A stretch of 20,611 bases of DNA from a virus: IMG/VR virus record IMGVR_UViG_3300007541_004389, positions 1 to 20,611 of that record; one strand, written 5' to 3'. Position 1 is the first letter of the stretch. The number at the start of each line of letters is the position of its first letter. Below, piece by piece: positions 4,160-18,500 of this stretch. The notes under the pieces are model-generated. The model was not told the origin of the DNA, searched no databases, and saw nothing but the letters and a program-made list of their open reading frames with translations. Made by a program: the position numbers and the translations under genes.

Positions 4160-5397
4160 TGAAAGGCTTTAAAGCATACATTACAGAAGCAGCAGGTAAG
4201 AACCTTCACATGACGCATTTAGAAGATGCTGTTATCGATGGAGGTGTTACTGGTACAAGGAATGTTTTTAATTATCTAAGAGCTCTCCGTGACATGCTAG
4301 CAGGCAACGCTTCTGCTCCTGTGAGCATCACAGTCAAGTGGGACGGTGCACCAGCTTTATTCGCTGGGGTTGATCCTTCTGATGGTAAGTTCTTTATTGC
4401 TAAGAAAGGAGTCTTTAATAAGAATCCAAAAATTTATAAAACAAATGCAGAAATTGATAATGATCTGAGTGGCGATCTAGCAGCTAAATTTAAAGTTGCT
4501 CTTAAGGAATTCGCCAAACTCGGGATCAGTGAAGGAGTGATACAAGGTGATTTCTTATTTACGAAAGACGATCTCAAAACAGAAACTATTGATGGAGAAT
4601 CGTATATTACTTTCCATCCTAACACGATTGTTTACGCGGTACCAACGAACAGCGACCTCGGTAAAACAATTGCAGGATCCGAAATCGGTGTGGTTTGGCA
4701 CACAACGTACCGAGGATCAGATTTTGAATCAATGTCAGCAAGTTTTGGAAAGAAGATTGTCCCAAGCCTCAACAAAACAAAAACAGTCTGGGCAGTAGAC
4801 GCAGTATTCGAAGACAAATCTGGTAACGCAACGTTTACTAAGAATGAAACTGACGAAATTACAAAACTTCTATCTGACGCAGGACGAATCTTTAGAACAG
4901 TAAGTCCTAAAGTGCTAAATGAATTAGGCACAAACACTGAGCTCAATGCTCGAGTGAATACATACATCAATTCAAAAGTGCGTGAAGGATCACGAATCGG
5001 CGATCCTCGCGGATTCATTATAGGTCTACAACAATACATTAAAGAATACTATCAGAAAGAAGCTGATAAAGTAAAACAACAAAAAAGTAAAGATATTAAG
5101 ATCGCTAAAGGCGAAGAACTATTAAAGTTTTTTGCTAGAACAAATATGAAACACATTTTAAATATCTTTACACTCTACAATATTCTAGTCGATTGCAAGT
5201 TGATGGTTATTGAGAAGCTTAATCATGTTGACGGACTCAAGACTTTCTTGAAAACAAATAAAGGATTCGAAGTAACTGGCCAAGAAGGTTTTGTTGCTAT
5301 TGACCATCTTGGAAAGAATTCGTTGAAACTCGTCGATCGCTTGCAGTTTAGTAAAGCAAACTTTAGTACAGAATACATTAAAGGGTGGCAGAAATAA
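4159..5397 (+). CDS. KWDG nucleotidyltransferase/ligase-like protein with capsid-targeting-like N-terminus
   Basis: A 412-residue protein that begins MKGFKAYITEA, the clearest targeting-like peptide in the window. Residues 58-63 read TVKWDGAP, the K-x-D-G motif I of covalent nucleotidyltransferases (DNA ligases, RNA ligases, capping enzymes), with K60 as the predicted AMP-accepting lysine. Later candidates follow in order: FFIAKKG near 78-84, EGVIQGDFLF at 125-134 (motif III/IIIa-like), EIGVVWHTTYRG at 175-186 (motif IV-like), and basic residues beyond 200. The C-terminal half is helical, and I see no recognisable OB domain. Relatives are known in marine T4-like phages, sometimes annotated as RNA ligase or as a DUF. 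The reaction is inferred from motif I. The start overlaps the kinase stop (TAATG), continuing the coupled trio. Confidence 0.72.
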   Translation: MKGFKAYITEAAGKNLHMTHLEDAVIDGGVTGTRNVFNYLRALRDMLAGNASAPVSITVKWDGAPALFAGVDPSDGKFFIAKKGVFNKNPKIYKTNAEIDNDLSGDLAAKFKVALKEFAKLGISEGVIQGDFLFTKDDLKTETIDGESYITFHPNTIVYAVPTNSDLGKTIAGSEIGVVWHTTYRGSDFESMSASFGKKIVPSLNKTKTVWAVDAVFEDKSGNATFTKNETDEITKLLSDAGRIFRTVSPKVLNELGTNTELNARVNTYINSKVREGSRIGDPRGFIIGLQQYIKEYYQKEADKVKQQKSKDIKIAKGEELLKFFARTNMKHILNIFTLYNILVDCKLMVIEKLNHVDGLKTFLKTNKGFEVTGQEGFVAIDHLGKNSLKLVDRLQFSKANFSTEYIKGWQK

Positions 5398-6515: not shown

Positions 6516-7151
6516 ATGGTTAAAGATGATTTTGAGACATACATTCGAGGAAAGCGAGTAGCTGTTGTAGGTAACGCGCTTTCTTTGTTTGATACTCAAT
6601 GTGGTAGTGAGATTGATGATCATGAAGTTGTAATTCGTATCAACACCCCCGCAATATTCTTCCAAGATCTCACACCTAGACACTCCCACGGAACTCGTAT
6701 TCATGTATGGGCTTTCTGGGATTATTTTCGTTATGCTACAAGTGACCATAGAGATAAACCAAGCAAACTTCTAGATACTTTCTGGAATACAGATAGATAT
6801 AACGTACTAGATTTAAACATGCTTAACAAAAAAGAAGCAGGTTTCAAATGGAACAAAAACGATTTCTTTTTTGAAATAAAACAAAACATGCTAAAAGAAA
6901 CTGGTAATCCTTCTGCGGGTTTATCCATTCTTTATTTACTTAATGAATGTGATCCTGCAGTAGTAAATGTTTATGGTTTTGATTTTAAACGCACACCTAC
7001 TTTTAGTAATTTTAATCAGGATGTTGATAGTAATAGATTTGATTCTTTCTACCGACACGACTACGCATTTGAAGAACAATATGCAAAACAAAAGTTCTTT
7101 ACACAAGAACGATTTAATTTAAAAGGAGAATATTATGGGACGTATTCGTGA
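6516..7151 (+). CDS. GT29 sialyltransferase-like glycosyltransferase
   Basis: A 211-residue protein with the ordered motifs of the GT29 (eukaryotic-type sialyltransferase) fold. The L motif is KRVAVVGNALSLF...IDDHEVVIRIN at residues 13-43, where VVGN and the [ED]ID-x-H-[DE]-V-V-I-R-[IM]-N core match the CMP-sialic-acid-binding segment. The S motif is GNPSAGLSILYLLNECDP..VNVYGFDF at 130-157. The VS motif H-x4-E is H181-E186 (HDYAFE). Family members transfer a sugar from a CMP-linked donor; the phage acceptor and donor are unknown. It is shorter than animal enzymes because it lacks the membrane stem. It starts the cassette, right after a sigma70 promoter, and its end overlaps the methyltransferase gene by 17 bases. 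Activity is inferred; the family match is strong by eye. Confidence 0.8.
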   Translation: MVKDDFETYIRGKRVAVVGNALSLFDTQCGSEIDDHEVVIRINTPAIFFQDLTPRHSHGTRIHVWAFWDYFRYATSDHRDKPSKLLDTFWNTDRYNVLDLNMLNKKEAGFKWNKNDFFFEIKQNMLKETGNPSAGLSILYLLNECDPAVVNVYGFDFKRTPTFSNFNQDVDSNRFDSFYRHDYAFEEQYAKQKFFTQERFNLKGEYYGTYS

Positions 7152-7701
7152 TAGAGGTCATGATGGCGGTAACATTTGGAGATGGCATACTATTGAAAAG
7201 TATGTTCGAAAAAACGGCTGGACAAAGGGCGCTGAACTAGGAGTGTGGTTAGGTGAAACATTTAAACATTTGGTCAAGACTTGTCATAATCTTCATCTTA
7301 TTGGTGTGGATCTTTATGCTCCCCAACCAGAAAACAACGGACCAGAAAAATGGACTTCTGGTGAAAATGGTCATGCATGGAATCACGAAGCATACTATCA
7401 AGACTTGGTAAGATTCTGTCAAGCATATCCAGGTCGAGCAGAAATCATTAAAGACTATACAACAGAAGCTGCAAAAGAAGTAGCTGATGAGAGTCTAGAT
7501 TTCGTATTCATTGATGCTGATCATGGATACGAAGGTTGTCTTCGCGATATTCAAGCATGGACTCCTAAAGTCCGTAAAGGTGGTATGATCATTGGCCACG
7601 ATATTCATTTCCCAACAGTTGAGCGAGCAGTCACCGAATACTTCGGTCCTAACTCGTGGAAAGTAGAAGACGATTTCTTGTGGTTAGTCGAGAAAACATA
7701 A
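7135..7701 (+). CDS. Class I SAM-dependent methyltransferase (Methyltransf_24-like)
   Basis: A 188-residue protein. Motif I is AELGVWLGET at residues 33-42 (SAM-binding glycine loop), LHLIGVDLY at 53-61 supplies the acidic residue for the ribose, and LDFVFIDADHGYEG at 121-134 is typical of the Methyltransf_24/O-methyltransferase group, followed by WTPKVRKGGMIIGHD. In sugar and antibiotic gene clusters this group often methylates hydroxyl groups of sugars. The ATG at 7135 is preceded by AAAAGGAGAAT, one of the best ribosome sites in the window, inside the end of the glycosyltransferase gene. Its stop overlaps the next small gene (TAATG). The substrate is unknown; O-methylation of a sugar fits the neighbours. 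Confidence 0.8.
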   Translation: MGRIRDRGHDGGNIWRWHTIEKYVRKNGWTKGAELGVWLGETFKHLVKTCHNLHLIGVDLYAPQPENNGPEKWTSGENGHAWNHEAYYQDLVRFCQAYPGRAEIIKDYTTEAAKEVADESLDFVFIDADHGYEGCLRDIQAWTPKVRKGGMIIGHDIHFPTVERAVTEYFGPNSWKVEDDFLWLVEKT

Positions 7702-7823
7702 TGAAGCGTTGCCAGTATTGTGGTAAAAGGTTCAGAGTCGTTCTTCTAAGCTCTGGTGTATTATGGTGTAGTTATGAGTGCAGTGAAAAGGATCTCAAAG
7801 GTGAAAAGAACGCGTGTAATTAA
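7701..7823 (+). CDS. 40-residue zinc-ribbon/knuckle-like protein
   Basis: A short open frame starts with the ATG overlapping the methyltransferase stop (TAATG) and encodes 40 residues. It carries C-x2-C at residues 4-7 (CQYC) and C-x3-C at 23-27 (CSYEC), a spacing suited to binding one zinc, with basic residues between. The TAATG coupling, the paired cysteines and the absence of any other gene covering 7702-7755 support it as real. Its end overlaps the start of the kinase gene. The role is unknown; it could be a small nucleic-acid- or protein-binding adaptor. Confidence 0.6.
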   Translation: MKRCQYCGKRFRVVLLSSGVLWCSYECSEKDLKGEKNACN

Positions 7824-8340
7824 TTTTTATGGTGGGCCCTGCTCAGGTAAAAGTACAGCTGCTGCAGGTTTATTTTACAAGATGAAGCTACTTAACTATA
7901 GTGTTGAGTTAACAGACGAGTTCGCTAAAGAATGTGTTTGGGAAGGAAATGTTCCTATGCTCAAAGACCAACTCTGGATCTTAGCTCATCAACATCGAAA
8001 GATTCTCAGACTAGTTGGTAAAGTAGATTATATTATCACTGATTCTCCAGTTCTACTTAGTCCCATCTATCGAGAAGTTTATGAAGGTCCTCTGTATAGC
8101 AATCTAATTGACAAGTTAGCTTTAGAATGTTATAATATGTACGACAATATTAACTTTATGTTAAGTCGCCCTCGTGATTTCGATCCTAATGGGCGAGCAC
8201 AAAACGAAGTCGAGAGTGTTCGCATTGATCTTGAGATCGTCGATCAATTCAAACGCTTAGACATACCCTATATACAAATTGAAGGATCTGATCACGCTTC
8301 TCTCGCTTACGACAAATTGGTGACTTTTTATGCACATTGA
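7801..8340 (+). CDS. P-loop nucleotide kinase-like ATPase (AAA_28-like)
   Basis: I favour the GTG at 7801, which has AAAAGGA eight to nine bases upstream and gives 179 residues with the P-loop close to the N-terminus. An ATG at 7774 (188 aa) and a GTG at 7756 are also in frame but lack a visible ribosome site. The core reads VINFYGGPCSGKST (residues 6-19), VDYIITDSPVL as the Walker B-like strand, and RDFDPNGRAQNEVESVRIDLEI as a LID-type region. This resembles AAA_28/NadR-kinase-like phage ATPases that phosphorylate small nucleotides or nucleosides. The substrate is unknown. Its end overlaps the hydroxymethyltransferase start by 11 bases. Confidence 0.75.
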   Translation: MKRTRVINFYGGPCSGKSTAAAGLFYKMKLLNYSVELTDEFAKECVWEGNVPMLKDQLWILAHQHRKILRLVGKVDYIITDSPVLLSPIYREVYEGPLYSNLIDKLALECYNMYDNINFMLSRPRDFDPNGRAQNEVESVRIDLEIVDQFKRLDIPYIQIEGSDHASLAYDKLVTFYAH

Positions 8341-9472
8341 AATTGACAAAATCTATCAGCGCGAACTCATGCGCCAACATAGTACTATAGAGTTTATTGC
8401 TAGTGAGAACTTTGCTTCTGACGCAGTAATGAAACTTTGTGGTTCTGAATTTACTAACAAATATGCTGAAGGCTATCCTGGCAAGCGTTATTACAACGGT
8501 TGCGAACACATGGACGAAATTGAAATCTTAGCGATTCAAAAGCTTAAAGACATCTATGGTTGTGCTTTTGCCAATGTTCAACCACACTCAGGTGCTAATG
8601 CTAACGCAGCAGTATTCCAAGCATTTCTAAAACCCGGCGATCGTATTCTTGGTATGGATCTTGCAAGTGGAGGACATCTTTCTCACGGTGCTCCTGTTAA
8701 CATGTCAGGTAAAAACTATCAAGCGTTTTCCTATGGTGTAGATAGTGTAGGTATGCTTGATTACGATCGTATTATGGATATTGCTAAAATCGTCAAACCT
8801 AAGATGATCATCGCGGGCGCTAGCGCGTACCCACGAAAAATCTATTGGGAAAAGTTTAGAGAGATCGCAGACGAAGTAGGTGCTTTGCTAATGGTTGATA
8901 TGGCACACTATTCTGGACTCATCGCTGGCGAAGCTTATCCTAATCCAGTTCCTTATGCAGATGTAGTTACTTCAACTACACACAAGACGCTCCGTGGTCC
9001 TCGTGGAGGAATCATTCTTTGGAATAACGACGAATACACTAAGAAAATTAACAGCGCAGTATTTCCTGGAACACAGGGTGGTCCTCTCATGAATATCATT
9101 GCAGCAAAAGCACAGTGTTTCATGGAAGCCGACACTCCTGAATTTTACGATTATGCAGATCGTGTAATTAAGAATGCTAAAGCGATGTGTGAAGTATTCA
9201 GTAAGTCTAATACGATTAAAGTACTTACGGACGGAACTGATTCGCACATCATTCTACTCGATCTAAGTGAATCAAAATACAGTGGTCGTCAAGCAGCTGA
9301 TATGCTCGAAGAAAATGGAATCACCGTAAATAAGAATGGTGTACCCAATGATCCTCGTCCCTTTATGGAAACTTCTGGTATCCGTATCGGAACTGCTGCT
9401 GAAACAACTCGCGGCCGCGACGAAAAATGGTTTAGAAGACAAGCAGAAAGAATATTGGAAATCATAGGATGA
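8330..9472 (+). CDS. glyA: Serine hydroxymethyltransferase
   Basis: A 380-residue PLP enzyme that interconverts serine plus tetrahydrofolate with glycine plus 5,10-methylene-tetrahydrofolate. Signature stretches are IEFIASENF (20-28), TNKYAEGYPGKRYYNGCE (42-59), NVQPHSGANAN (82-92), GGHLSHGAPVNMSGK (114-128), VDMAHYSGLIAG (189-200, with the PLP-ring aspartate D190), the PLP-binding TTHKTLRGPRGG with K219, and TSGIRIGT (348-355) with the substrate-carboxylate arginine R352. Active-site residues look complete. Compared with E. coli GlyA as I recall it, it is shorter at the start and lacks about 30 C-terminal residues, ending right after the last core helix. It probably feeds one-carbon units to thymidylate or modified-base synthesis, or makes glycine. 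It overlaps both neighbours, so it belongs to the cassette. Confidence 0.95.
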   Translation: MHIEIDKIYQRELMRQHSTIEFIASENFASDAVMKLCGSEFTNKYAEGYPGKRYYNGCEHMDEIEILAIQKLKDIYGCAFANVQPHSGANANAAVFQAFLKPGDRILGMDLASGGHLSHGAPVNMSGKNYQAFSYGVDSVGMLDYDRIMDIAKIVKPKMIIAGASAYPRKIYWEKFREIADEVGALLMVDMAHYSGLIAGEAYPNPVPYADVVTSTTHKTLRGPRGGIILWNNDEYTKKINSAVFPGTQGGPLMNIIAAKAQCFMEADTPEFYDYADRVIKNAKAMCEVFSKSNTIKVLTDGTDSHIILLDLSESKYSGRQAADMLEENGITVNKNGVPNDPRPFMETSGIRIGTAAETTRGRDEKWFRRQAERILEIIG

Positions 9473-10131
9473 AAACAAGTATCGAAAAGAAACTCAGCCA
9501 CATTTGGATCGGGCCAAAGCCAGCTCCACTAAAGTGGATGTACACTTGGCGCGATAAACATCCCGATTGGGAGTATAGTATTTTTACCGATACTATGCTT
9601 AGGACTCGTCGATGGAAGAACCAACACTTGATCGAAGAGTATTATAATAGACGCTTATGGCCTGGTGTTTCTGACCTTATTCGATACGAACTTCTTTATG
9701 AAAATGGTGGATTCATTGCTGAAGCAGATATGATCTGTTTAGAGAATACTGATGAACTATTCCAAAGTCCTGAAGATCACGCTTATACTTGCTTTGAGAA
9801 CGAAAAAGGAAGACCTAATTTTGTTCAACCTATTTTTGCTTGCAATCCTGAAAACAAATTCATAGCTATGGTAATAGATGAACTTCATAAACTCAGACGA
9901 GGCGATCTTCATCCACAACCTTTCATGTCAACGGGTAATGCTTTTCTAGCTAAGCACGTGCCTCAATGGCGAGACAAACTTACTATATGGCCGTCACACT
10001 ATTTCATTCCTCAGTTCTATGTAGCTGGAGCGAAGAGATACGATGGGCCAGATAAAGTGTATGCAGATCATAAGTGGGGTTCTACCGGAATGCACGCTCA
10101 CTGCTTACAATATTCAGACGGGGTTCTATAA
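9469..10131 (+). CDS. GT32-like glycosyltransferase (DXD-sugar family)
   Basis: A 220-residue protein. The N-terminus KKLSHIWIGPKPAPLKW (residues 7-23) is the typical first strand of the Gly_transf_sug/GT32 group. It is followed by W-x-x-x-x-P-D-W-E-Y and then SDLIRYELLYENGGFIAEADM at 68-88, where the group normally carries a D-x-D for metal and sugar-nucleotide binding. Here the motif is E-A-D (85-87), a conservative change that should still bind a metal but deserves checking. Related proteins transfer mannose, glucose or galactose to lipids or polysaccharides. Its ATG overlaps the upstream TGA (ATGA), and its stop overlaps the sulfotransferase start, so translation of this cassette section is probably coupled. 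Confidence 0.8.
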   Translation: MKTSIEKKLSHIWIGPKPAPLKWMYTWRDKHPDWEYSIFTDTMLRTRRWKNQHLIEEYYNRRLWPGVSDLIRYELLYENGGFIAEADMICLENTDELFQSPEDHAYTCFENEKGRPNFVQPIFACNPENKFIAMVIDELHKLRRGDLHPQPFMSTGNAFLAKHVPQWRDKLTIWPSHYFIPQFYVAGAKRYDGPDKVYADHKWGSTGMHAHCLQYSDGVL

Positions 10132-10790
10132 TGTACTTATCACACAAATATAAATTTCTATTCTTACGTACGCCAAAGACTGCAAGCAGCAGTCTTTCGG
10201 ATTTTTTTATTCGCAACATCAATGATCCTGAAGCGATCTATACTGAAGTTGAAGATTCAAACTTACCAGGAACACTTGACGAGAGTATCGTATCTCGTTA
10301 TCGTCCCTATGCTTTCTATCATTTTACTCTCGATCAATTAATTCATGAAGGAGTAATTACAGAAGAGCAAGCTCGTGAATACGATGTTTTTGCGCTACTG
10401 AGAGATCCTATTGATAGAGCAAAAAGTTTTTACTACTTCTATAAGAAATTTAGATCACCAGGAACTTCTCCTTCTCTTGAAGAATATAAGAGATGGACTA
10501 ACAAGGGAGTGTTTAATAACGATCCTAACTCCGCAATAGTGCAAACAGACCTATTAAAAATCAAAGGTGAATCGGTAGGTCGATACTGGTTATATGAGAA
10601 TCTTGAAAAAGAATTATCTAATTTTATGTTCCACAGAAGATTGAGAATCGATCATCCTCTACCTCGGCATAAAACAGATACACGAAAAGTTAAAAAGAAC
10701 GAGATTGAATTTGATGAAACTTCTTTAAACGATTTACGAGAGCACTTTCAAAACGATTTCATACTGTACGAGCAACTTAAGAAAAAGTAA
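10131..10790 (+). CDS. PAPS-dependent sulfotransferase-like protein
   Basis: A 219-residue protein starting at the ATG that overlaps the previous stop (TAATG). An in-frame upstream start at 10074 would lie inside the glycosyltransferase and is less likely. The opening FLFLRTPKTASSSL (residues 10-22) is the 5'-phosphosulfate loop of Sulfotransfer_2-type enzymes, and FALLRDPIDRAKSFYYFY at 87-104 is the 3'-phosphate-binding region with R91 and S99. His64 (YAFYHF) is a candidate catalytic residue. Family members add sulfate from PAPS to sugars, peptides or lipids. With three glycosyltransferases and a methyltransferase in the same unit, a carbohydrate acceptor is the simplest inference. A terminator-like hairpin lies inside its first 70 bases. 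Confidence 0.82.
   Translation: MYLSHKYKFLFLRTPKTASSSLSDFFIRNINDPEAIYTEVEDSNLPGTLDESIVSRYRPYAFYHFTLDQLIHEGVITEEQAREYDVFALLRDPIDRAKSFYYFYKKFRSPGTSPSLEEYKRWTNKGVFNNDPNSAIVQTDLLKIKGESVGRYWLYENLEKELSNFMFHRRLRIDHPLPRHKTDTRKVKKNEIEFDETSLNDLREHFQNDFILYEQLKKK
10175..10208 (+). other. Terminator-like hairpin inside the sulfotransferase gene
   Basis: A perfect 9-bp stem, AAAGACTGC (10175-10183) paired with GCAGTCTTT (10189-10197), closes a 5-base loop (AAGCA). CGGA and then seven T residues (10202-10208) follow. This resembles an intrinsic terminator except for the 4-base spacer before the T-run. The same bases encode the PAPS-binding loop, so coding constraint could explain it. Function is unproven. 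Confidence 0.4.
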
Positions 10791-10912
10791 TGAAAAGATT
10801 CTTTGCTAAGCTATGGGATAAATTCACATTACTACTTACTTACGCTTTATTGTTCGTGAGTGTGTTTATGTTCTTGTACGCACTGATTCTTTTCTACGCA
10901 AATACAAATTAA
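10790..10912 (+). CDS. 40-residue single-pass membrane protein
   Basis: The frame opens with an ATG overlapping the sulfotransferase stop (TAATG) and encodes 40 residues. A short basic, aromatic N-terminus (MKRFFAKLWDKF) is followed by about 24 hydrophobic residues (LLLTYALLFVSVFMFLYALI and beyond) and a polar end (YANTN). This is a single transmembrane helix, with the N-terminus predicted in the cytoplasm by the positive-inside rule. It fills the whole space between two confident genes, which supports it as real. It could anchor the cassette enzymes at the inner membrane; a holin-like role is less likely from one helix and this location. Confidence 0.6.
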   Translation: MKRFFAKLWDKFTLLLTYALLFVSVFMFLYALILFYANTN

Positions 10913-10913
10913 A

Positions 10914-11603
10914 ATGAGCACAAAGGCATATATTCTTAAAATTAACACGCCGGTTTCTCAAGAATATGCTAAGATATGCGCAGATTCTTGTGATAGTGTC
11001 GGTCTAAAGTGGGAATACTTTCAAGGCTATCAGAATATGACTGGCCGAGCAGGTTGGTGTTTAACTGGAATTAGAATGCACTTCCATGAACCTGTCCGTT
11101 ATCTACCAGATCCTAATCCTTCACAAAAAGCAAATGCGTGTAGCGCTGGTCACGGTGCTATTTGGAAACTTATCGCTGATGGTCCTGATGATGTAGGTGT
11201 GGTACTAGAGCACGATGCTATCATGCTCCAACCACTTACTATAAATATTCCAGATAACGTTATAGTTGTTTTGGGATACAAAGTATCAAACCCAAAGCGA
11301 TATGATCATGTTAGTGCCGGAGAGCCACGGGAATTAATAGATATAGATGGACACGAAGGTGCTCATGCTTATGCTATGACTAGGAATACAGCTAAGTTTT
11401 TAGTCAGTGAAATAGAACAAAGAGGTATTTTAGGAGCTGTTGATAACGCATACTTTATTAGAGGACAGCGAAGAACAGCAATACCACTTAAGATAGCTAG
11501 CCCTACTCCAGCTCTTGGCTGGATTAGAGAAAGCACAATATGGGGCTCTAGCGCCCATAGAAACTACGAATTCATTTCCTCGTTTAAAGAAAATTATAAA
11601 TAA
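10914..11603 (+). CDS. GT25-like glycosyltransferase
   Basis: A 229-residue protein. Features of the GT25 (LPS glycosyltransferase) group occur in order: an N-terminal strand AYILKIN, then ACSAGHGAIWKLI (75-87, equivalent to the family's GCxxSHxxIW), GVVLEHDAIML (95-105, with E-H-D at the usual E-D-D position), and GAHAYAMTRNTAKFLV (about 148-163), followed by AVDNAYF, the region that carries a conserved aspartate. Family members mostly transfer galactose or glucose to lipooligosaccharide or hydroxylysine. It is the last gene of the sigma70-driven cassette, and its final codons and stop lie within the next late promoter. The acceptor is unknown. Confidence 0.75.
   Translation: MSTKAYILKINTPVSQEYAKICADSCDSVGLKWEYFQGYQNMTGRAGWCLTGIRMHFHEPVRYLPDPNPSQKANACSAGHGAIWKLIADGPDDVGVVLEHDAIMLQPLTINIPDNVIVVLGYKVSNPKRYDHVSAGEPRELIDIDGHEGAHAYAMTRNTAKFLVSEIEQRGILGAVDNAYFIRGQRRTAIPLKIASPTPALGWIRESTIWGSSAHRNYEFISSFKENYK
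11595..11602 (+). promoter_or_regulatory. T4-type late promoter TATAAATA
   Basis: An exact TATAAATA overlaps the last codons of the GT25-like gene; its final TA is the start of that gene's TAA stop (11601-11603). It lies 39 bases before the ATG at 11642. The surrounding 14 bp are identical to those at 1575-1588. It should drive the head-protein genes from 11642 onward. Confidence 0.8.
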
Positions 11604-11641: not shown

Positions 11642-13729
11642 ATGAGCCAAATATTTCAAGAATTCTTGAATTCCGTTAAATCGTGTGATATTTCGTTGCC
11701 TGTATCTTTCGTAGAGGCACCAGACGACGATGACGCAGCGCTTGAAATCGATCCAAGTGATGACGATAATCCGGAAGTCGAAAAACCAAAACCAAAGAAA
11801 AAAGTCACTAAAAAGAAGAAGTGGAAACCAAGTTTCAATCCAGACAAATATGTTGATGTGAAACCTGAATTAAGAGAAGCGCCAAAGAGTGACACTGCAG
11901 TCATTACATTTGGGCGAATGAATCCAATCACAACTGGCCATAATGTACTTGTTAACGCAGTGGTTGCAACCGCTCTTAAGTCCGGCGGAATACCACTCGT
12001 TTACTTATCTCAAAGTACTGATCCTAAAAAGAATCCTCTAACTTATGACCAAAAAATCAGATTCGCAAAGCGCGCGTTTGGTGCTAAGTTAATTGTTAAA
12101 AGCAAGTCTAGAACTATTCTCGAAGTTGCAACAGAGCTTCAGAATAGATTTAAGAAACTCATTGTAGTCGTAGGCTCAGATAGAGTCTCTGAATTTGATA
12201 ATCTACTCAACAAATATAATGGTAATCTCTACAATTATGATGAGATCAAAGTAGTATCTGCAGGTGAGCGCGATCCTGATTCAGACGATGTTTCAGGTAT
12301 GTCAGCTTCTAAAGCAAGAGGATTTGCAAAAGATGGTGACATGGAGTCTTTCAAGAAAAGCTTACCTCCTAAACTTCAATCTCAAGCGGCTTCTGTTTAT
12401 AACGCAGTTAGAGCTGGCATGGGAATTAAAGAAGCAGTCGAACAACTCGAACTAGAAGAAGCTCTAACACGTCAACAAAGACTCAAGCGCAAGATGATTA
12501 TGCGCAGAATTAAGTCTAAGATTCAAATGGGTCGTCGTAGAGCTATGAGACGTAGAGCGACCACAGCTGTGGTTCAAAAACGCGCTAAGAAAATGGTTCT
12601 TCGTATGCTCAAGCAAAGATTTGCTAAGAGTAATCGATATGCAGATCTTCCATATAGTGCAAGACAGCGTATCGACGATCGTATTGCGCGTATTCCTAAA
12701 GCTCGTCTCAAGATTCTAATGAGACGCTACATTCCGAAAATTAAGAAAATGGAGAGAGATAGATTTGCAGCTAAGGTTGCAAAAGCAACAGCTCCAGCAG
12801 CTTATAAGCCAAAACCAGTCTCTATTGTTAAAGCTAGAGTTCCTGAGAGTGTAAGCATAAACTTCAACAGCATCTTCGAAAAGTTTATTTCAGAAAGAGT
12901 TGAAAAACCAGAATCACTTCCAAACACAAAAAGTAATCTCGAATTAGCAGTTGAAATGGCAAACACCCTCGGCGCTAATATGAATTACGCTATTAAAGAA
13001 ATTGATAAGATTAAGAAAGGATTGTCTCGACATCCTGAAGTAAAGAATGCGCTAAGATTAACTAATGCACGCTTTAACGAAGAAGTATATCAGCAATACA
13101 CCTTTGAGAAAAGACTCGAAGAAGGTGCATCATATCACGCAGGACTTTCAAAGTCAACCGCAGCTAAGCGCAAAGCACAATTCAATAAACAAGCAAAGAT
13201 GGACGATGATAATCCTGCAGCCTATAAGCCAGCTCCTGGTGATGCTACTGCAGAGACAAAGCCTAGCAAACATACTTCAAAGTTTAAAAAGATATTCGGC
13301 GAAACTAATTACGAGAAAGCTCACCTCAAGAAGCCACACATGCTTTTAGATAAGAAAGGTGCAGTCGTAATTGATAAGCGTTTTCGTATGTTTAAGAAAG
13401 CAAAAGAAGTCGATATGGTATTAGCTCAATACAATAAAGAAGAAAAGATTCAAGAGATTAATGATCTAATAGAATCTGTTGAGTTTGTTTTCGAGAGCAA
13501 TCCTAAAAAATCATTAAGAGACAAAGCCGAAAAGACAGGGATTTCTTATTCCATTCTTAAAAAAGTTTTTGATCGTGGTGTCGCAGCATGGCGCACAGGT
13601 CATAGACCAGGTACAACTCCTACACAATGGGGATTAGCTAGAGTTAATTCATTTGCAACTGGTGGAAAAACACAAAAAACAACAGACAAAGATCTTTGGG
13701 ATCAACACAGAGGAAGTAAAAGTGATTAA
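11642..13729 (+). CDS. Nucleotidyltransferase (HxGH-type) fused to a basic domain and a DUF5824-like C-terminus; putative head protein
   Basis: A 695-residue multidomain protein. Residues 28-45 are Asp-rich and 49-62 Lys-rich linkers. Residues 85-230 form a cytidylyltransferase-like domain: TAVITFGRMNPITTGH (85-100) carries the T/H-x-G-H motif and GMSASKARG (219-227) the I-S-x-T-x-x-R-type motif of NMN/pantetheine adenylyltransferases. At 266-274 VEQLELEEA looks like a prohead-protease site. Residues 275-375 are extremely Arg/Lys/Met-rich (e.g. KMIMRRIKSKIQMGRRRAMR), suited to binding DNA. Residues 431-481 carry a module shared with the gene at 17820. The last ~75 residues (GISYSILKK...AAWRTGHRPGTTPTQWGLARV) match a DUF5824-type phage domain. 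The N-terminus MSQIFQEFLNS only weakly resembles the targeting peptide. The nucleotide product is unknown. Confidence 0.8.
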   Translation: MSQIFQEFLNSVKSCDISLPVSFVEAPDDDDAALEIDPSDDDNPEVEKPKPKKKVTKKKKWKPSFNPDKYVDVKPELREAPKSDTAVITFGRMNPITTGHNVLVNAVVATALKSGGIPLVYLSQSTDPKKNPLTYDQKIRFAKRAFGAKLIVKSKSRTILEVATELQNRFKKLIVVVGSDRVSEFDNLLNKYNGNLYNYDEIKVVSAGERDPDSDDVSGMSASKARGFAKDGDMESFKKSLPPKLQSQAASVYNAVRAGMGIKEAVEQLELEEALTRQQRLKRKMIMRRIKSKIQMGRRRAMRRRATTAVVQKRAKKMVLRMLKQRFAKSNRYADLPYSARQRIDDRIARIPKARLKILMRRYIPKIKKMERDRFAAKVAKATAPAAYKPKPVSIVKARVPESVSINFNSIFEKFISERVEKPESLPNTKSNLELAVEMANTLGANMNYAIKEIDKIKKGLSRHPEVKNALRLTNARFNEEVYQQYTFEKRLEEGASYHAGLSKSTAAKRKAQFNKQAKMDDDNPAAYKPAPGDATAETKPSKHTSKFKKIFGETNYEKAHLKKPHMLLDKKGAVVIDKRFRMFKKAKEVDMVLAQYNKEEKIQEINDLIESVEFVFESNPKKSLRDKAEKTGISYSILKKVFDRGVAAWRTGHRPGTTPTQWGLARVNSFATGGKTQKTTDKDLWDQHRGSKSD

Positions 13730-14834
13730 GTTCAAGGACCTAAAAGAAGCAGGTGGAGCAGGAGACTGGGGAACTGACAAAGCTCGTAAGAAGCTTCAAC
13801 AAGACACTCCAGGCCAAGGCATTACTGATATGGGCGTAAAAAATAAACAGCGTAAAGAATCAGTTGAACTTAGCGAAAAGCTAAAAGTGTCTGATGGTCT
13901 AGGTGCTTGGATCGACGATTTCATGAAGTCAGATGCTCCTCAGTTTAAAAATGCAGATGATAAGAAGCGCCGTGACATGGCGATCGCAGCATTTACTTCA
14001 GCCGGTGGTAAACTCGATGAGTCAGTTATATCCATTGAAGAAGGAGCTGTTGCTCTTTCCACAGTTGAAAAAGAAATCAGATCAAACGGTGGAAAGATTG
14101 TTAAGAAAGACGACAGATCAATTACATTTACTTTAAACGGTGCTCAAAGAAAAGTTCCAGTAGATAGAGGACATGTACTAGATACTTATTACATGCAACT
14201 TCAGAAAATGTTCGAAGAAGTAGAATACGTTAGTGAAGATGGACAATGGGGCGTTAAGAACGTATATTTGAAATACACACCAGATGTTCTCAAATTAAAG
14301 AAGATCAAAATTCAAGATACAATTAGCAACCTTAAGAGACAACACAGCAGCTTAACTGCACTAGGTGGTAAGAATCCACGAGCTGAAGAGATCAAAGAGT
14401 TAGAAGGAAAACTTCGCATGATCGATCAAGCAATGAGAACTAAGAAAGAATCGCTTGATCTTGATGAAGCAGACACCTACGCAATCTACAAGAAAGGTAA
14501 AGTATTCGATACTTTCAGATCCAAAGAAGATGCGCATGACTCTCTAGATAGTATGGGTCTTTCTGCGATCAGCAAAAAAGATTATAGCGTAAGAAAACTT
14601 CCTGCTAATTATAAAAGCAACTGGTCGATGAAAGAAGAAGTCGAGCTTGATGAAGGAACTCTAGCTGCGAGTGACGGGAGTGTTGTTGATGCGCTACTCA
14701 CCGCAGTAAAAGATAAATTGATGAAAGATTTAAGTAGTGGAAATGTTGATGATGCTAACGAAATTGCAAAGATGGTCAAAATGACTATAGAAAAAGATTA
14801 TAAACGCAAAGGATTTTCGAGGCTAAAAAGATGA
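13722..14834 (+). CDS. Putative packaged head protein with several prohead-protease-like sites
   Basis: I place the start at the GTG at 13722, which follows AGAGGAAG by about eight bases and gives MIKFKDLKEAG, the same targeting-like peptide as other genes here; a longer frame from 13653 would run inside the upstream gene. The 370-residue product is charged and helical. It contains DGLGAWIDDFMKSDAPQF...RRDMAIAAF, a module I associate with structural proteins of T4-like marine phages. Candidate cleavage motifs are ESVELSEK, VISIEEG, SLDLDEA and EEVELDEG, spaced so that cutting would release several fragments. No enzyme motif is visible. It overlaps the upstream gene by eight bases and the downstream gene by four. 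Confidence 0.72.
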   Translation: MIKFKDLKEAGGAGDWGTDKARKKLQQDTPGQGITDMGVKNKQRKESVELSEKLKVSDGLGAWIDDFMKSDAPQFKNADDKKRRDMAIAAFTSAGGKLDESVISIEEGAVALSTVEKEIRSNGGKIVKKDDRSITFTLNGAQRKVPVDRGHVLDTYYMQLQKMFEEVEYVSEDGQWGVKNVYLKYTPDVLKLKKIKIQDTISNLKRQHSSLTALGGKNPRAEEIKELEGKLRMIDQAMRTKKESLDLDEADTYAIYKKGKVFDTFRSKEDAHDSLDSMGLSAISKKDYSVRKLPANYKSNWSMKEEVELDEGTLAASDGSVVDALLTAVKDKLMKDLSSGNVDDANEIAKMVKMTIEKDYKRKGFSRLKR

Positions 14835-15442
14835 AAAAATTTATAAACTTTATAGAAGAAAAGGGTGAAGCTGTTGACGCAACAGACATGCCAAAACTCC
14901 AACAATTAATTAGACTTGGTCTCGCTGATAGTAAAGACCTAGCGCTAATCAAGAGAACCATTATGAAAATGGATTCTGGCGAAGAGCTAACAATGAAAGA
15001 GAAGAAGATGGCAGAAAAGCTAGCCAAGATTCTTCTTGACAAAGTAATTGGAAACAAAGTAATTTACAACTTAGTTCGCCAAGGTCTTGGAAAAGAGAGT
15101 GTGCAAGAAGATCTCGATGAAAACGCAAGACGTGATGCTATGGCTGCTATCCGCAGAGATAAAGATTTTAGAGACAAAGATGATGAAGACGACGTAGCTA
15201 CAGATGCTGATCGAGCTGCTGCTAAGAAGAATCCTATCATGCAATTGAGAAAGATTTCTGATATCGAAGGTGGAGAGATGGAGTTCACCAATCGCAAGAA
15301 AATGAAAGTTTCTAAAGTAGATGCTGACAAGATTCTAAGAGCTTTTGGTACTATTCAAAAGTCTTTAGACAAGCAAAAGTTTCAAACTCTAATCGGACGT
15401 AGTCCAGAAGATTTCAAGAAAATACTTAAGATTCTAAGATAA
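14831..15442 (+). CDS. Putative packaged internal head protein (charged, helical)
   Basis: A 203-residue protein that opens MKKFINFIEEKG, a near-ideal match to the T4 capsid-targeting pattern, with I-E-E as the expected cleavage point. The rest is very charged and helical. It includes the Lys-rich stretch MKEKKMAEKLAKILLDK, EDLDENARRDAMAAIRRDKDFRDKDDEDD (split here by a possible L-D-E site), and a C-terminal helix FKKILKILR. No catalytic motif is visible. Composition resembles small basic/acidic core proteins packed with DNA. It overlaps the upstream stop (ATGA) and the downstream start (TAATG), so translation is probably coupled across the set. Confidence 0.7.
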   Translation: MKKFINFIEEKGEAVDATDMPKLQQLIRLGLADSKDLALIKRTIMKMDSGEELTMKEKKMAEKLAKILLDKVIGNKVIYNLVRQGLGKESVQEDLDENARRDAMAAIRRDKDFRDKDDEDDVATDADRAAAKKNPIMQLRKISDIEGGEMEFTNRKKMKVSKVDADKILRAFGTIQKSLDKQKFQTLIGRSPEDFKKILKILR

Positions 15443-15672
15443 TGAAAAGCTTTAAAGAGTTTATTTCAGAAGGTTCTGAAACTTGGGAAGCGGGTTTCAA
15501 GCGCAGAGTCGTAAAGACAACTAAACCTGAGCACAAAGAAAAAGGTTACAACTGGCGCATCAAAGGAAAAGATCGTCCAGAGATAAGCATTAAATTATAT
15601 AAAGACAAACCATCATTTGATGAATTTAAAAAACAAATGAAGCGTGTTGCAGGACACGAATTCGGAGGATAA
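15442..15672 (+). CDS. Small putative packaged internal head protein
   Basis: A 76-residue protein beginning MKSFKEFISEG, where cleavage after I-S-E would leave about 66 residues. The remainder is basic (FKRRVVKTTKPEHKEKGYNWR, KQMKRVAG) with a short predicted sheet. The size and charge fit the class of small internal proteins that T4 packages with its genome. The start overlaps the upstream stop. I do not recognise a named family. Confidence 0.68.
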   Translation: MKSFKEFISEGSETWEAGFKRRVVKTTKPEHKEKGYNWRIKGKDRPEISIKLYKDKPSFDEFKKQMKRVAGHEFGG

Positions 15673-15677
15673 GAAAA

Positions 15678-16301
15678 ATGTTAAGATTTAAGCGATTTGT
15701 TGAACAGACAGAACTAGTCGAGTCGCATTTCGAAGTAGGCGATAAAGTTAAGTGTGTTCATAGCGGCAAGGAAGGCGTCGTCACTAAAGTTGATCCTTCT
15801 GAAAAAGGTAAGTACTACACTGTTAAGCGCGATGATGGTGAAGTCATGCAGTACGCACCAGACGACCTCGAGGCTTTGAAAGAAGAAGTCGAACTTGATG
15901 AAGCAGGTTATAAAGTGCCGAAGAACTATGCTTCTATGATGGCGAAGAAACGTAGAAAGGCTGGCACTTCTGAGTTTGGCACGCACCCAGATAAGAAAAA
16001 AGAGGTAAAGAAAGAAGAAATCGAGCTTGAAGAAGGACGTAACGAAGCACTTAAAGCCCTCGAAGGACTCGCTAAGCGCGGAGGAATGGATAAAGCTGAT
16101 TTTCAAAAAGCTCATGATCTATATAAAGCCAACAAACTCACCGATCTCAGAAAACATATCTACGGACTAGATACAGATCCTAGTGAAGCTATCGCAGACG
16201 TTATTAACAGACATGATTCAAAAGCATTTAACAGCATGTATCCAAAAGCTAAAGCTGGTGATTACCTTCGTATGATTATATTAAATCACGGTGGAAAATA
16301 A
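15678..16301 (+). CDS. Putative packaged protein with KOW/SH3-like domain and two protease-like sites
   Basis: A 207-residue protein opening MLRFKRFVEQTE. Residues 19-70 (FEVGDKVKCVHSGKEGVVTKV...YYTVKRDDGEVMQYAPDDLEAL) read as a small SH3-like barrel of the KOW type, with the G-D-x-V start and the central G-x-V turn; such barrels often bind nucleic acid or protein. KEEVELDEAG then marks the domain end, and a short basic linker (MMAKKRRKAGTSEFGTH) follows before KKEEIELEEG. The last ~90 residues are helical (ALEGLAKRGGMDKADFQKAHDLYK). Cleavage at both motifs would produce a barrel domain, a basic peptide and a helical domain. It lies five bases after the previous stop. Confidence 0.7.
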   Translation: MLRFKRFVEQTELVESHFEVGDKVKCVHSGKEGVVTKVDPSEKGKYYTVKRDDGEVMQYAPDDLEALKEEVELDEAGYKVPKNYASMMAKKRRKAGTSEFGTHPDKKKEVKKEEIELEEGRNEALKALEGLAKRGGMDKADFQKAHDLYKANKLTDLRKHIYGLDTDPSEAIADVINRHDSKAFNSMYPKAKAGDYLRMIILNHGGK

Positions 16302-16303
16302 AA

Positions 16304-16705
16304 TTGAAAGGCTTTAAGAACTTTTACAACGAAGAAAGGTTCGGCATTTACGAGGGGGTTACAGTCCCTCTCGAACAGCCTATGATCGAGTTCGATAGTT
16401 CTATGGGACTCTTGGCTGCAGAAAAAGAACCAGAACTAAATTCACCAAAGCGAAGCTCTGGTGATAAGAAATACGTTGTTTATGTTCGTAATCCAAAAAC
16501 AAGAAACATCAAGAAGATCGAGTTCGGAGATGAAAAAGGTGGACTCACTTCAAAGATTAACGATAGAGACGCTGCAAAGAGTTTTGCTGCAAGACACCAA
16601 TGTGATACTAAGAACGATAAGATGACTCCAGGATACTGGGCGTGTCGTTTACCTAAGTATGCTAAGTCTTTAGGATTGCAGGGCGGTGGCGATTATTTTT
16701 GGTAA
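16304..16705 (+). CDS. Putative packaged head protein with conserved Cys-containing phage domain
   Basis: A 133-residue protein with a TTG start at 16304; the N-terminus then reads MKGFKNFYNEE, again the targeting-like peptide, and the upstream GGTGGA can serve as ribosome site. The 13 bases TGAAAGGCTTTAA at the start also occur at the start of the ligase-like gene at 4159. After a variable linker, residues about 55-125 (KKYVVYVRNPKTRNIKKIEFGD...FAARHQCDT..DKMTPGYWACRLP) match a small domain I recall from T4-like marine phages, with C-D-T and W-A-C cysteines that may pair or bind metal. The function of that domain is unknown to me. Confidence 0.68.
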   Translation: MKGFKNFYNEERFGIYEGVTVPLEQPMIEFDSSMGLLAAEKEPELNSPKRSSGDKKYVVYVRNPKTRNIKKIEFGDEKGGLTSKINDRDAAKSFAARHQCDTKNDKMTPGYWACRLPKYAKSLGLQGGGDYFW

Positions 16706-16715
16706 GGAGTAAAAA

Positions 16716-17096
16716 ATGAAAAAATTAGTATTAGGTCTAGTGTTAGTAACATTTTTAGGTGGCTGTTCAAGTCTTGGAAAGTTTATTCCAAGTAAGTTCG
16801 ACAATGTTGAATATGGAAAGCTCGTCGAGTTAAATGTAATTTCTACTATGGCTCCCGCTGGGTGGTGTCAAGAATCTGCAATTCAACAAATGAATTATAG
16901 AGCAGTGTGGTTACAAACGTATAGTAAGTATAGACTTAACGAGAACATCGCTAAGATATATGAACAAATAGGTGATATTACAAAAGAATTGAATGAGCGT
17001 GAGAATCCTAGTGAAGCTTATTGCCGCATCAAAAGAGAAAACATACACAAAATAACAGCTGAAGCTCTACAAGTATTCGGAGGTAGAAGATCGTGA
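16716..17096 (+). CDS. Putative phage lipoprotein
   Basis: A 126-residue protein with a clear lipoprotein signal: MKK, the hydrophobic stretch LVLGLVLVTFLGG, and lipobox L-G-G-C with Cys17 as the lipidated residue. The mature part is mostly helical with two further cysteines (Cys47 in GWCQES and one in AYCRIK). An AAGGAG ribosome site precedes the ATG. Lipidation implies the periplasmic face of the inner or outer membrane of a Gram-negative host. Possible jobs are superinfection exclusion or helping lysis; the sequence does not decide. Its end overlaps the next gene's GTG start. Confidence 0.72.
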   Translation: MKKLVLGLVLVTFLGGCSSLGKFIPSKFDNVEYGKLVELNVISTMAPAGWCQESAIQQMNYRAVWLQTYSKYRLNENIAKIYEQIGDITKELNERENPSEAYCRIKRENIHKITAEALQVFGGRRS

Positions 17097-17308
17097 ATCT
17101 AGAAACATGGCAAGAAATTCAAGAAGCAAAGGTAAGAGAACTTAAAGAATTATATGACGCTGGAAATCTTTCAGAGTCAGAGTACACAGAATTAGTCGAA
17201 GATCTACTCGATCTTCAAAAAATTTCTGATGGTCTAGATCTCGAAGAAAATAAAATTCGCGCTCAAAAAGCTATAGAAGCGATTAGGATGGTTGCGGGAC
17301 TTATCTAA
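17093..17308 (+). CDS. Small helical protein with SHOCT-like segment
   Basis: A 71-residue protein starting with the GTG at 17093, which overlaps the lipoprotein stop (GTGA). The central segment KVRELKELYDAGNLSESEYTELVEDLL resembles the SHOCT motif (L-x-x-L-x-D-x-G-x-[IL]-[ST]-x-x-E-[FY]), a short two-helix element common at protein ends. The rest is amphipathic helix ending AIRMVAGLI. There is no membrane segment or enzyme motif. Overlap with both neighbours suggests co-translation with the lipoprotein and the coiled-coil protein. Confidence 0.62.
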   Translation: MNLETWQEIQEAKVRELKELYDAGNLSESEYTELVEDLLDLQKISDGLDLEENKIRAQKAIEAIRMVAGLI

Positions 17309-17529
17309 TGTCCAGCAACATATTGTTGCTAGCTGATATTATAGAACAGAAAGTTAGAAAAGAAAAAGAACTCGAATTTTATCAAGAACAGCTAGAAAAA
17401 CTTGAAAGGAAGATGTGGTTCATTCGAAAAGAAATCGAAGTGACCAATCTTTGTATAGAAATTATTCAAAACGAAAAAGCGGATATTTTATCCGGAAGGT
17501 TGATTAGTAATGACATCACTCACGAATGA
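17308..17529 (+). CDS. Small coiled-coil protein
   Basis: A 73-residue protein whose ATG overlaps the previous stop (TAATG). Almost all of it (residues 8-60) is a charged heptad-like helix (KEKELEFYQEQLEKLERKMWFIRKEIEV), so a coiled-coil dimer is likely. The function is unknown. It could pair with the neighbouring SHOCT-like protein. The last 20 bases overlap the next gene. Confidence 0.58.
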   Translation: MSSNILLLADIIEQKVRKEKELEFYQEQLEKLERKMWFIRKEIEVTNLCIEIIQNEKADILSGRLISNDITHE

Positions 17530-17791
17530 GTATTATGAACCTTATTACAATGTGGGTGACATAAGAATATTTGATGTGGATGCTGAAGACGAAAATTACG
17601 TCTGGCACATGGATCACGACAATAGACGGATAAAGATTTTAGAGGGAGACGGCTGGCAATTTCAATGGGAAGGCTGCCTTCCATGGCTTTTGAAGCCAGG
17701 TATGGAGTTCAATATTAAAAAGAACGAATACCACAGGTTAATTAAAGGTGTAAACGATCTCAAGATACAAATTACATCATTAGATAAATAA
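17510..17791 (+). CDS. Small cupin-like protein
   Basis: A 93-residue protein. The alternating strands VWHMDHDNRRIKILEGDGWQF, LPWLLKPGMEFNI and KNEYHRLIKG..DLKIQI follow the cupin pattern: G-D-G-W turn, P-G-x-x-F-x-I, and a conserved histidine (EYHRLIKG) on the second motif. Similar short cupin-fold proteins are familiar from T4-like phages. Only one or two of the usual metal ligands are obvious (His in VWHMDH and EYHR), so it may bind a ligand rather than catalyse. The start lies inside the coiled-coil gene after GGAAGG. Confidence 0.65.
   Translation: MTSLTNEYYEPYYNVGDIRIFDVDAEDENYVWHMDHDNRRIKILEGDGWQFQWEGCLPWLLKPGMEFNIKKNEYHRLIKGVNDLKIQITSLDK
17783..17790 (+). promoter_or_regulatory. Variant late promoter GATAAATA
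   Basis: GATAAATA lies at the end of the cupin-like gene, 29 bases before the ATG at 17820. It differs from TATAAATA only in the first base, the position I understand to be least constrained in marine T4-like phages. The downstream product looks like a head protein, which fits late expression. Confidence 0.5.
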
Positions 17792-17819
17792 ACAATAAGT
17801 ATTTTTATAGGAGACTGAA

Positions 17820-18500
17820 ATGTCGTTCAAAGATAAAATTGATGAGATTCTAGCAAGTGCTATTCGTTCTCAGCTAAATGAGAAGAAGAAAATGGATCCT
17901 GTCGGTAAAGCAGACGCTGACATCGATAATGATGGTGACGTAGATTCTTCTGACGAGTATCTTCACAATCGTCGTAAAGCAATTGCTAAAGCGATGAAGA
18001 AAGAAGAAGCTAGCGATGAGCCTATTACTGCACAAGATATTAAAATGGCGATAGGTATTGCAAACGATGCTCGTTATAAAGACGGCAACTATACTGCTGC
18101 TTATAACAAAATTGCTAACATGAAAAAAGGTTTAGTATCTCACCCTCGCGTTAAAGATGCTCTAAGAAGAGCAAACGAAGAATTAGAGCTTGACGAAGCT
18201 ACTCTAAGAGTTCCTGCATTCACTGGAAAAATTGGAGATCGTACAGGTTTTAGAATGACACGAGGCGCAGCTAGTATGTATGGCGGATATGATGTAACAC
18301 TCAGCGGCGATGAAAAAGCTATCTTATCATACGCTAAAAGACATTTAGGTGGAGAAGGTGATACACTTGCAGACGTACAACGCAGTCTGCGCCCAGTGGG
18401 TGAAGAAGACAAACAAGAAGGATCTTGTGGAACGACTAATTCGTCTTACATGAATGCTTCTTATTTGAAGGCGGCCGCAAAAGCTTCTAAGAAAAAATAA
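17820..18500 (+). CDS. Putative head protein with EF-hand-like loop and protease-like site
   Basis: A 226-residue protein preceded by AGGAG. After an N-terminal helix (MSFKDKIDEIL), residues 34-45 read D-I-D-N-D-G-D-V-D-S-S-D, an EF-hand-type calcium loop followed by EYLHNRRKAIAKAM. Residues 72-121 carry the module A-I-x-I-A-N...NY..A...I..MKKGLVSHPRVKDALRRANEE, shared with the gene at 11642. ELELDEAT follows, a prohead-protease-like site. The C-terminal ~100 residues (GKIGDRTGFRMTRGAASMYGGYDVTLS) include a Gly-rich domain, and the end is Lys/Ala-rich (KAAAKASKKK). Marine T4-like phages have similar proteins of unknown role; a head-core or packaged protein is the best guess. Confidence 0.7.
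   Translation: MSFKDKIDEILASAIRSQLNEKKKMDPVGKADADIDNDGDVDSSDEYLHNRRKAIAKAMKKEEASDEPITAQDIKMAIGIANDARYKDGNYTAAYNKIANMKKGLVSHPRVKDALRRANEELELDEATLRVPAFTGKIGDRTGFRMTRGAASMYGGYDVTLSGDEKAILSYAKRHLGGEGDTLADVQRSLRPVGEEDKQEGSCGTTNSSYMNASYLKAAAKASKKK

Follow-up and report, generated by a model that had tools for sequence, protein, structure and literature searches.

The locus and its recurrent motif

We analyzed a 20,611-nt virus record, IMGVR_UViG_3300007541_004389 (positions 1 to 20,611; record G000), referred to below as the window, in which four open reading frames (ORFs) carry a recurrent acidic peptide motif. The 28 proteins of the window (6523 amino acids [aa]) served as the set for motif counts. 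A group of neighboring genes, for a gp41-type helicase, a DUF6267 protein, a P-loop kinase, and a cytidylyltransferase with a DUF5824 domain, is common to the window and to Kyanoviridae such as HTVC008M and Melnitz, and the closest isolate for DUF6267 is phage C48C1 (50% identity). Besides HTVC008M, the comparison drew on C48C1, the first 50 kb of Melnitz, and relatives from IMG/VR.

Seven nonapeptides had been put forward in the original prediction as probable prohead-protease sites, and all seven were found in frame on the plus strand, distributed over ORFs 11642-13729 (one), 13722-14834 (three), 15678-16301 (two), and 17820-18500 (one) (Table 1). The form under which they had been grouped, [VIL]-E-L-[DE]-E-[AG], is exact in five of the seven, whereas KESVELSEK and KESLDLDEA require the wider core [VIL][ED]L[DES]E. 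A long nine-residue form, [EQ][ESQ][VIL][ED]L[DES]E[AGK], was fitted to the seven sites themselves. HTVC008M was rejected as a reference genome: it is syntenic with the window, but the nine-residue form occurs nowhere in it, and the core is found once only, outside the gene cluster.

The wider core occurs nine times in the window proteins (shuffle mean, 0.24) and the nine-residue form seven times, always within the four motif ORFs (shuffle mean, 0.00); neither count was reached in any of 1000 composition-preserving shuffles. The motif can therefore practically be dismissed as a chance product of a Glu-rich, Lys-rich composition; these proteins are indeed rich in charged residues, but module boundaries, described below, would not follow a motif arising in this way. 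Codons vary among the seven sites, and this diversity ruled out a reading as a DNA repeat. The two core matches outside the four ORFs, in the serine hydroxymethyltransferase ORF 8330-9472 and in a 71-aa protein at 17093-17308, are both without the flanking pattern. The latter protein (weak SHOCT match) and its counterpart L005:13676-13894 have a conserved L-[DE]-L-E-E-N-K segment that matches the core, with neither the flanks nor a sign of a seam.

Table 1. Motif ORFs, predicted cut sites, and capsid targeting sequence (CTS)-like leaders of the window (a slash marks the predicted cut)
Feature	Position	Strand	Remarks
ORF	11642-13729	+	Cytidylyltransferase, very basic module (net +38), and DUF5824; without clear CTS
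Site VEQLELEE/A	12437-12463	+	Predicted cut after 12460
ORF	13722-14834	+	Putative modular polyprotein of six predicted pieces; starts with GTG; CTS-like VIKFKDLKE/ assigned by eye only
Site KESVELSE/K	13854-13880	+	Predicted cut after 13877; then module KLKVSDGLGAWIDDF
Further predicted site ISIEE/G	14028-14042	+	Predicted cut after 14042; before module GAVALSTVEKEI
Further predicted site YVSE/D	14226-14237	+	Predicted cut after 14237; before module DGQWGV
Site KESLDLDE/A	14445-14471	+	Predicted cut after 14468; then module ADTYAIYKKGKVFD
Site KEEVELDE/G	14631-14657	+	Predicted cut after 14654
ORF	15678-16301	+	Putative modular polyprotein; CTS-like MLRFKRFVEQTELVE/; three predicted pieces: SH3/Tudor-like barrel, PKNYASMM, GRNEALKALEG
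Site KEEVELDE/A	15879-15905	+	Predicted cut after 15902; low-confidence model stretch
Site KEEIELEE/G	16011-16037	+	Predicted cut after 16034; then GRNEALKALEG-type module
ORF	17820-18500	+	Predicted pieces: EF-hand-like (by eye), IKMAIGIA, TGKIGDRTG; without clear CTS
Site NEELELDE/A	18174-18200	+	Predicted cut after 18197; then module ATLRVPAFTGKI
CTS-like MKKFKSHISE/	1620-1649	+	ORF 1620-3119 (phrog_3060); loose pattern
CTS-like MIRFKRFLEE/	3116-3145	+	P-loop kinase ORF 3116-4159; strict pattern
CTS-like MKGFKAYITE/	4159-4188	+	DUF6267 ORF 4159-5397; strict pattern
CTS-like MKKFINFIEE/	14831-14860	+	ORF 14831-15442; strict pattern
Short CTS-led protein MKSFKEFISE/GSETWEAGF...	15442-15672	+	Strict pattern
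CTS-like protein LKGFKNFYNEE...	16304-16705	+	TTG start; loose pattern

CTS-like leaders

In T4, the end of the CTS is a head-protease site. Leaders were sought with the strict pattern M..[FY]..[FY][LIV].E, alternative starts being read as M, and with a looser variant. The strict pattern is found in 4 of the 28 window ORFs (3116, 4159, 14831, and 15442) and the loose one in 7 (these four plus 1620, 15678, and 16304), and the GTG-started ORF 13722 is an eighth case, assigned by eye; among the four motif ORFs, a leader is thus seen in 15678 by the loose pattern and in 13722 by eye only. These leaders, overlooked in the original prediction together with the further probable sites ISIEE/ and YVSE/, bear much of the argument. 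According to excerpts of a review, the main determinants in the T4 IPIII leader are residues 4 and 7 for targeting and residues 8 and 10 for processing (PMC9026906). In seven large genomes, three of them reached via a motif match, 13 of the 341 ORFs located no more than 5 kb from cluster markers or the head-operon markers gp20 to gp23 open with the strict leader, versus 3 of 827 ORFs elsewhere (Fisher p = 2e-5), and one of the three marker-distant leaders starts identically to the window kinase ORF. HTVC008M and G008, two of these seven genomes, have no ORF with the strict leader.

Two CTS-led enzymes are adjacent at 3116-5397, namely the P-loop kinase, which matches zeta-toxin/AAA_33 as well as a polynucleotide-kinase PHROG, and the DUF6267 protein, whose KWDGAPA resembles the KxDG nucleotidyl-transfer motif of ligases; they could form a packaged end-repair pair. 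One PHROG profile, phrog_455, extends over DUF6267 at positions 19-341 and over the cytidylyltransferase at 412-661, which makes a fusion of the two probable in some phages. The stretch 6516-11603, flanked by the DUF6267 and cytidylyltransferase ORFs, is by its Pfam matches a cargo-gene island (glycosyltransferase 29-like, methyltransferase, AAA_28 kinase-like, serine hydroxymethyltransferase, sugar transferase, and sulfotransferase genes), several genes of which are also present in the related loci L005 and L025.

Sites at the seams of exchangeable modules

In the IMG/VR relatives, the pieces between sites are exchangeable modules, and each of the seven sites directly precedes a small module that is found in related phages behind another partner or behind a CTS. 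Module KLKVSDGLGAWIDDF follows VELSE/ in the window and stands directly behind a CTS in L005, L008, L010, and L025; KLKVSDGLGAW, for instance, is preceded by VELSE/ in the window and by a CTS (MKTFREFLEE/, MKSFKQYLEE/) in L005 and L025. Module GAVALSTVEKEI is preceded by VELDE/ in L025 and by DILDE/ in L005, where DGQWGV follows LKNE/ and where the order of the modules starting GAVAL, DGQWGV, and GTLAAS is changed. For the modules behind sites 14445 and 14631, a single other instance each was found: ADTYAIYKKGKVFD lies in a different ORF of L025 with another module ahead of it, and the module after 14631 has a different module ahead of it in L005. The module after site 15879 is preceded by EELDE/ in L041; the GRNEALKALEG-type module, behind IELEE/ in the window, follows FLNE/, VELEE/, VDLDE/, VDLGE/, or GGLKE/ elsewhere; and ATLRVPAFTGKI is preceded elsewhere by PLVE/, VMYE/, EMTE/, or AELDE/. 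Conversely, the GSETWEAGF module, a CTS-led ORF of its own in the window, serves as the C-terminal piece of longer ORFs in L008 (KLDE/), L025, L055, L073, and L086, while DUF5824, the final domain of ORF 11642-13729, and a module resembling the basic module of that ORF (30% identity) are separate CTS-led ORFs in C48C1. The occurrence of modules both fused and as separate CTS-led ORFs lends indirect support, at the level of sequence, to a reading of the long ORFs as polyproteins. The original prediction had placed the sites between domains of otherwise unrelated proteins; they do lie at module boundaries, whereas the proteins are built from modules exchanged among genes of related phages. The longest chain, L083:4151-8404, has 1417 aa; seven strict sites were marked in it, besides several that fit more loosely.

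The boundary test on module starts provides the main quantitative evidence. Eleven module families, taken from fragments cut at strict sites, and one typed family were sought in 2868 distinct ORFs, yielding 163 instances, of which 46 have the strict motif, one was dropped because its upstream sequence was too short, and 116 were tested. An [LIVMFY]-x-E tripeptide ends within 1 residue of the module start in 67 of these 116 nonstrict instances, compared with a random mean of 8.7 (sd 2.7; maximum, 19; 1000 draws), and exactly at the start in 38, compared with 3.0, the random positions being drawn from the same proteins. Because the instances share ancestry with each other, the counts represent nonindependent events. 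Tests on BLAST alignment ends were given less weight: unmasked ends show an approximately 2- to 3-fold enrichment, where the motif itself can stretch the alignment, and in the masked repeat, 125 starts (18.3 expected) and 136 ends (18.0 expected) of 907 coincide, where masking tends to end alignments.

Relatives of 13713-16301 were not found in phages by nucleotide search, a tblastn search with a 407-aa relative polyprotein (L027) gave no relatives at 1e-3, and the basic module of ORF 11642-13729 gave no tblastn match at 1e-5. Few modules received a name from the Pfam or PHROG scans (DUF5824, DUF3008-like, EF-hand-like, and DUF7421), and most piece functions therefore remain guesses. An EF-hand/dockerin-like piece (DxDIDNDGDVDxSDEYLHxRRKA) recurs in ORF 17820-18500 and in the polyproteins of L117, L028, and L026, which suggests calcium binding by packaged proteins.

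Structure models

The AlphaFold model of ORF 15678-16301 has a compact barrel at approximately residues 20 to 67 with a weak SH3/Tudor-like resemblance (best Foldseek E value, 1.1e-3), followed by a low-confidence stretch (71 to 82) that overlaps the first site (68 to 75); a second such stretch (94 to 121) contains the second site (112 to 119). The model of ORF 13722-14834 has poor stretches at 30 to 57, 98 to 107, 166 to 179, 247 to 249, and 298 to 319; all five internal sites predicted in this ORF overlap with them, the fourth only at the end of a helix.

Sites lying in or at such stretches would also be expected of an uncut flexible linker, in which the acidic motif is a favored hinge that is reused as a recombination seam. 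The 126 EEVELDE instances bear on this alternative in both directions: one 21-mer encodes 34 of them, and shared DNA could help recombination, but 44 distinct 21-mers are used in all, which indicates that the protein sequence is what is conserved. A hinge also leaves unexplained why the same modules stand directly after a CTS end and why [LIV]-x-E spacing is kept at nonstrict module starts, and we regard the linker as unlikely.

Genomic distribution of the motif

A degenerate DNA scan of IMG/VR for E-E-V-E-L-D-E-[AG] returned at least 120 stretches. Motif-bearing ORFs were pooled over all collected loci, and 119 of 139 were kept after near-identical ones were dropped; 102 of the 119 sit on loci from the pattern scan. 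Among the matches listed, 90 of these 102 ORFs lie within 5 kb of a marker (66 by cluster markers and 24 by gp20 to gp23, with 12 near neither), compared with the 20 to 35% of coding sequence that is equally near a marker in seven large genomes. Head operons contain 25 of the 119 motif ORFs: 10 lie between gp20 (portal) and gp21 (protease), 14 fit this interval with one flank missing, and 1 is the scaffold gp22. In T4, genes 67 and 68 occupy the gp20-gp21 interval. The scaffold protein, L057:2932-4116, bears NEEVELDEGT, which fits the known cutting of scaffolds by gp21.

The original prediction had proposed a motif search to see whether the motif is confined to head proteins. Twelve nine-residue matches were found in eight phage records (310,395 aa; four of the eight reached via a motif match), 11 of them in multimodule ORFs; the twelfth is in a 253-aa ORF of G002 outside the marked regions, which shares a piece (E value, 8.5e-12) with another G002 ORF. 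This form is thus not equally common in nonstructural genes, whereas the five-residue core is not confined: the portal, the scaffold, and a ribonucleotide-reductase-like ORF of G003 contain it too, as does the ribonucleotide reductase large subunit of C48C1.

The gene 67/68 position is equally what one would expect if the motif were an internal docking peptide that binds scaffold, portal, or protease and allows core entry without cutting, and the presence of the motif in ORFs 11642 and 17820, which have no clear CTS, points the same way. Docking does not explain why boundaries fall right after the Glu or why short CTS-led ORFs are the same modules split off; it can, moreover, coexist with cutting, as in the T4 CTS. 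As the sole role of the motif, docking appears to us quite improbable.

Protease, capsid sites, and packaging

Peptidase_S77 scores above its curated cutoff in 7 of 10 related records, including G003, which holds the syntenic locus L006; the remaining three records are 25.7 to 48.5 kb long. Capsid proteins of the same genomes have x-L-x-E-like candidate sites, predicted by eye, near the position of the T4 gp23 cut: SLLSE/A (G003, L127), SLLQE/A (G008), ALFE/A (G001), GFMTE/S (G004), FLGE/I (HTVC008M), FLYE/A (G002), and GFLTE/T (C48C1). Since no Peptidase_S77 gene was found in the window, cutting by another protease, host or phage encoded, might be considered; the related records, the fit of the sites to the Glu-specific head-protease rule, and the 25 motif ORFs in head operons make this very improbable.

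A cytidylyltransferase (T4-GC190) is reported in the excerpted text of Sullivan et al. (PMC3037559) from purified S-SM1 virions, and the published S-CREM2 virion proteins include the cytidylyltransferase ORF154 and the hypothetical ORF155, 156, and 160 (PMC10665884). These virion cytidylyltransferases are homologues of ORF 11642-13729. CTS-like leaders open both SSM1_190 of S-SM1 (ending F-L-N-E/A) and S-CREM2 gp154 (F-L-T-E/A), and ORF 11642-13729 is 35% identical to the latter over 193 columns. Two noncapsid proteins contain a stretch that resembles the major capsid protein's N-terminal arm, L206:20806-21354 of S-SM1 (e.g., TGGFSSSADATGPNAGYDP) and L207:14343-15236, which is S-CREM2 gp160, a member of the same published list (PMC10665884, in excerpt). 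Net charge was calculated for 21 of the 28 window proteins: every one of the ten that have a leader or motif is positive (+1 to +55), and among the other 11, two are positive (+3 and +4) and the rest neutral or negative. The positive charge of the leader and motif proteins suits contact with DNA in the head.

Proposed processing of the motif ORFs

Taken together, the motif and leader ORFs of this marine T4-like phage probably encode CTS-targeted internal head proteins, organized as modular polyproteins that are shuffled at gp21-type sites, and we hold this reading with good confidence. The assignment of the sites to a gp21-type prohead protease, as originally proposed, is well supported by module recurrence, by [LIVMFY]-x-E at module starts, by location near head and cluster genes, and, at low model confidence, by the placement of the sites in or at poorly modeled stretches between pieces; the cut itself we infer. 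In the proposed mechanism, CTS-like leaders would bring the ORF products into the prohead core, as with the T4 internal proteins, and a gp21-type protease would cut after x-L-x-E at the leader and at the [VIL][ED]L[DES]E seams, which would release whole enzymes along with several small pieces, each of approximately 40 to 90 residues. Pieces that stay with the DNA would probably be ejected into the host, and the rest may leave the head as T4 core fragments do; as with these steps, it is by inference that we name the protease and place its products in the head. Because each piece would be released separately, the seams would permit gain, loss, and re-ordering of pieces, and the genes would evolve as shuffled polyproteins.

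Several observations weigh against this reading. No cleavage product has been seen. Peptidase_S77 was not found in the 20.6-kb window; the same query likewise gave no match in 14 control genomes but did match in relatives. A clear CTS is lacking from two motif ORFs, 11642 and 17820, and 12 of the 102 scan-locus ORFs among the matches listed are near no marker. No [LIVMFY]-x-E lies within 4 residues of 27 of the 163 module starts (in a listing that includes a second typed family), and the rule is therefore not absolute; nor is the motif universal even among syntenic phages, since its nine-residue form is in none of HTVC008M, G004, and C48C1, while the five-residue core also occurs in unrelated proteins such as ribonucleotide reductase. 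The match of the basic module to C48C1 is between Lys/Arg-rich sequences and comes from a single direct pairwise comparison (E value, 3e-8). The AlphaFold models are of low confidence (mean pLDDT values, 58.3 and 59.6; few sequences), a modeled helix crosses the sites at 14445 and 16011, and poor stretches also occur away from sites, e.g., at 165 to 207 in the last module of ORF 15678-16301. Finally, excerpts of a published study describe T4 core proteins as cut by gp21 into fragments that leave the head (PMC5694885).

If the polyprotein reading is true, the packed head proteins of marine T4-like phages and the ends of each mature piece would be readable from sequence alone, and cargo evolution would be simple, in that a domain set after x-L-x-E in a chain would be packaged and released. 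The modules would be candidate counter-defense factors in phages of ocean bacteria because the T4 internal proteins are injected restriction-enzyme inhibitors. More tentatively, the chains may constitute a combinatorial store of injected proteins, in which modules of approximately 40 to 90 residues, in chains of up to 1417 residues, use one head-protease code as both cut site and swap seam and represent a large unexplored antidefense or takeover set delivered with the DNA; we place this possibility somewhat short of an even chance, and no higher, because core fragments leave the head in T4.

Comparison with known systems

Leader-based targeting and processing are well known from T4. In the literature that was searched and seen in part, with most subscription journals outside the search, no report of polyproteins shuffled at prohead-protease seams in T4-like phages was recognized. 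The head protease of SPN3US cuts after Glu at A-x-E, according to excerpts of the study (PMC5694885), and the giant phages phiKZ, SPN3US, and 201phi2-1 resemble the system proposed here in cutting after Glu at a short motif and in having many packaged proteins; however, the processing described in these excerpts is mostly propeptide removal, with no shuffled module chain (PMC5694885). The polyvalent proteins of phages and conjugative elements, which are multidomain, carried into the host, and likened to polyproteins in the text available (PMC5512222), are freed by embedded peptidase domains, whereas the motif ORFs have none in our scans (no peptidase domain by Pfam at an E value of 0.01 in 12 window ORFs and eight related polyproteins, and no named one by PHROGs), and the prohead protease is the proposed cutter. 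The T4 core proteins gp67 and gp68 and the scaffold gp22 resemble the motif ORFs in having multiple sites per protein, in the one motif-bearing gp22 (L057), and in position, with 24 of the 25 head-operon motif ORFs in, or consistent with, the portal-protease interval. In contrast to the T4 core fragments, which leave the head, the pieces of the motif ORFs are conserved modules that recur across genes, some of which may be retained.

The closest parallel is provided by IPI, IPII, IPIII, and Alt of T4, which are CTS led, processed by gp21, and ejected. They share with the window ORFs the leader residues (aromatic ones at positions 4 and 7, a hydrophobic one at 8, and Glu at 10), small mature proteins (predicted here), variable sets, and net positive charge. 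The internal proteins of T-even phages have a conserved leader on otherwise unrelated sequences, and T4 Ip1 to Ip3 are injected inhibitors of type IV restriction enzymes, as described in excerpts of two reports (PMC12373910, PMC3012670); Alt is additionally described in a review excerpt as losing a C-terminal peptide (PMC9026906). Whereas each T4 gene gives one mature piece, the window ORFs would give several predicted pieces that are shuffled between genes, and it is these multipiece chains with shuffling that are new here.

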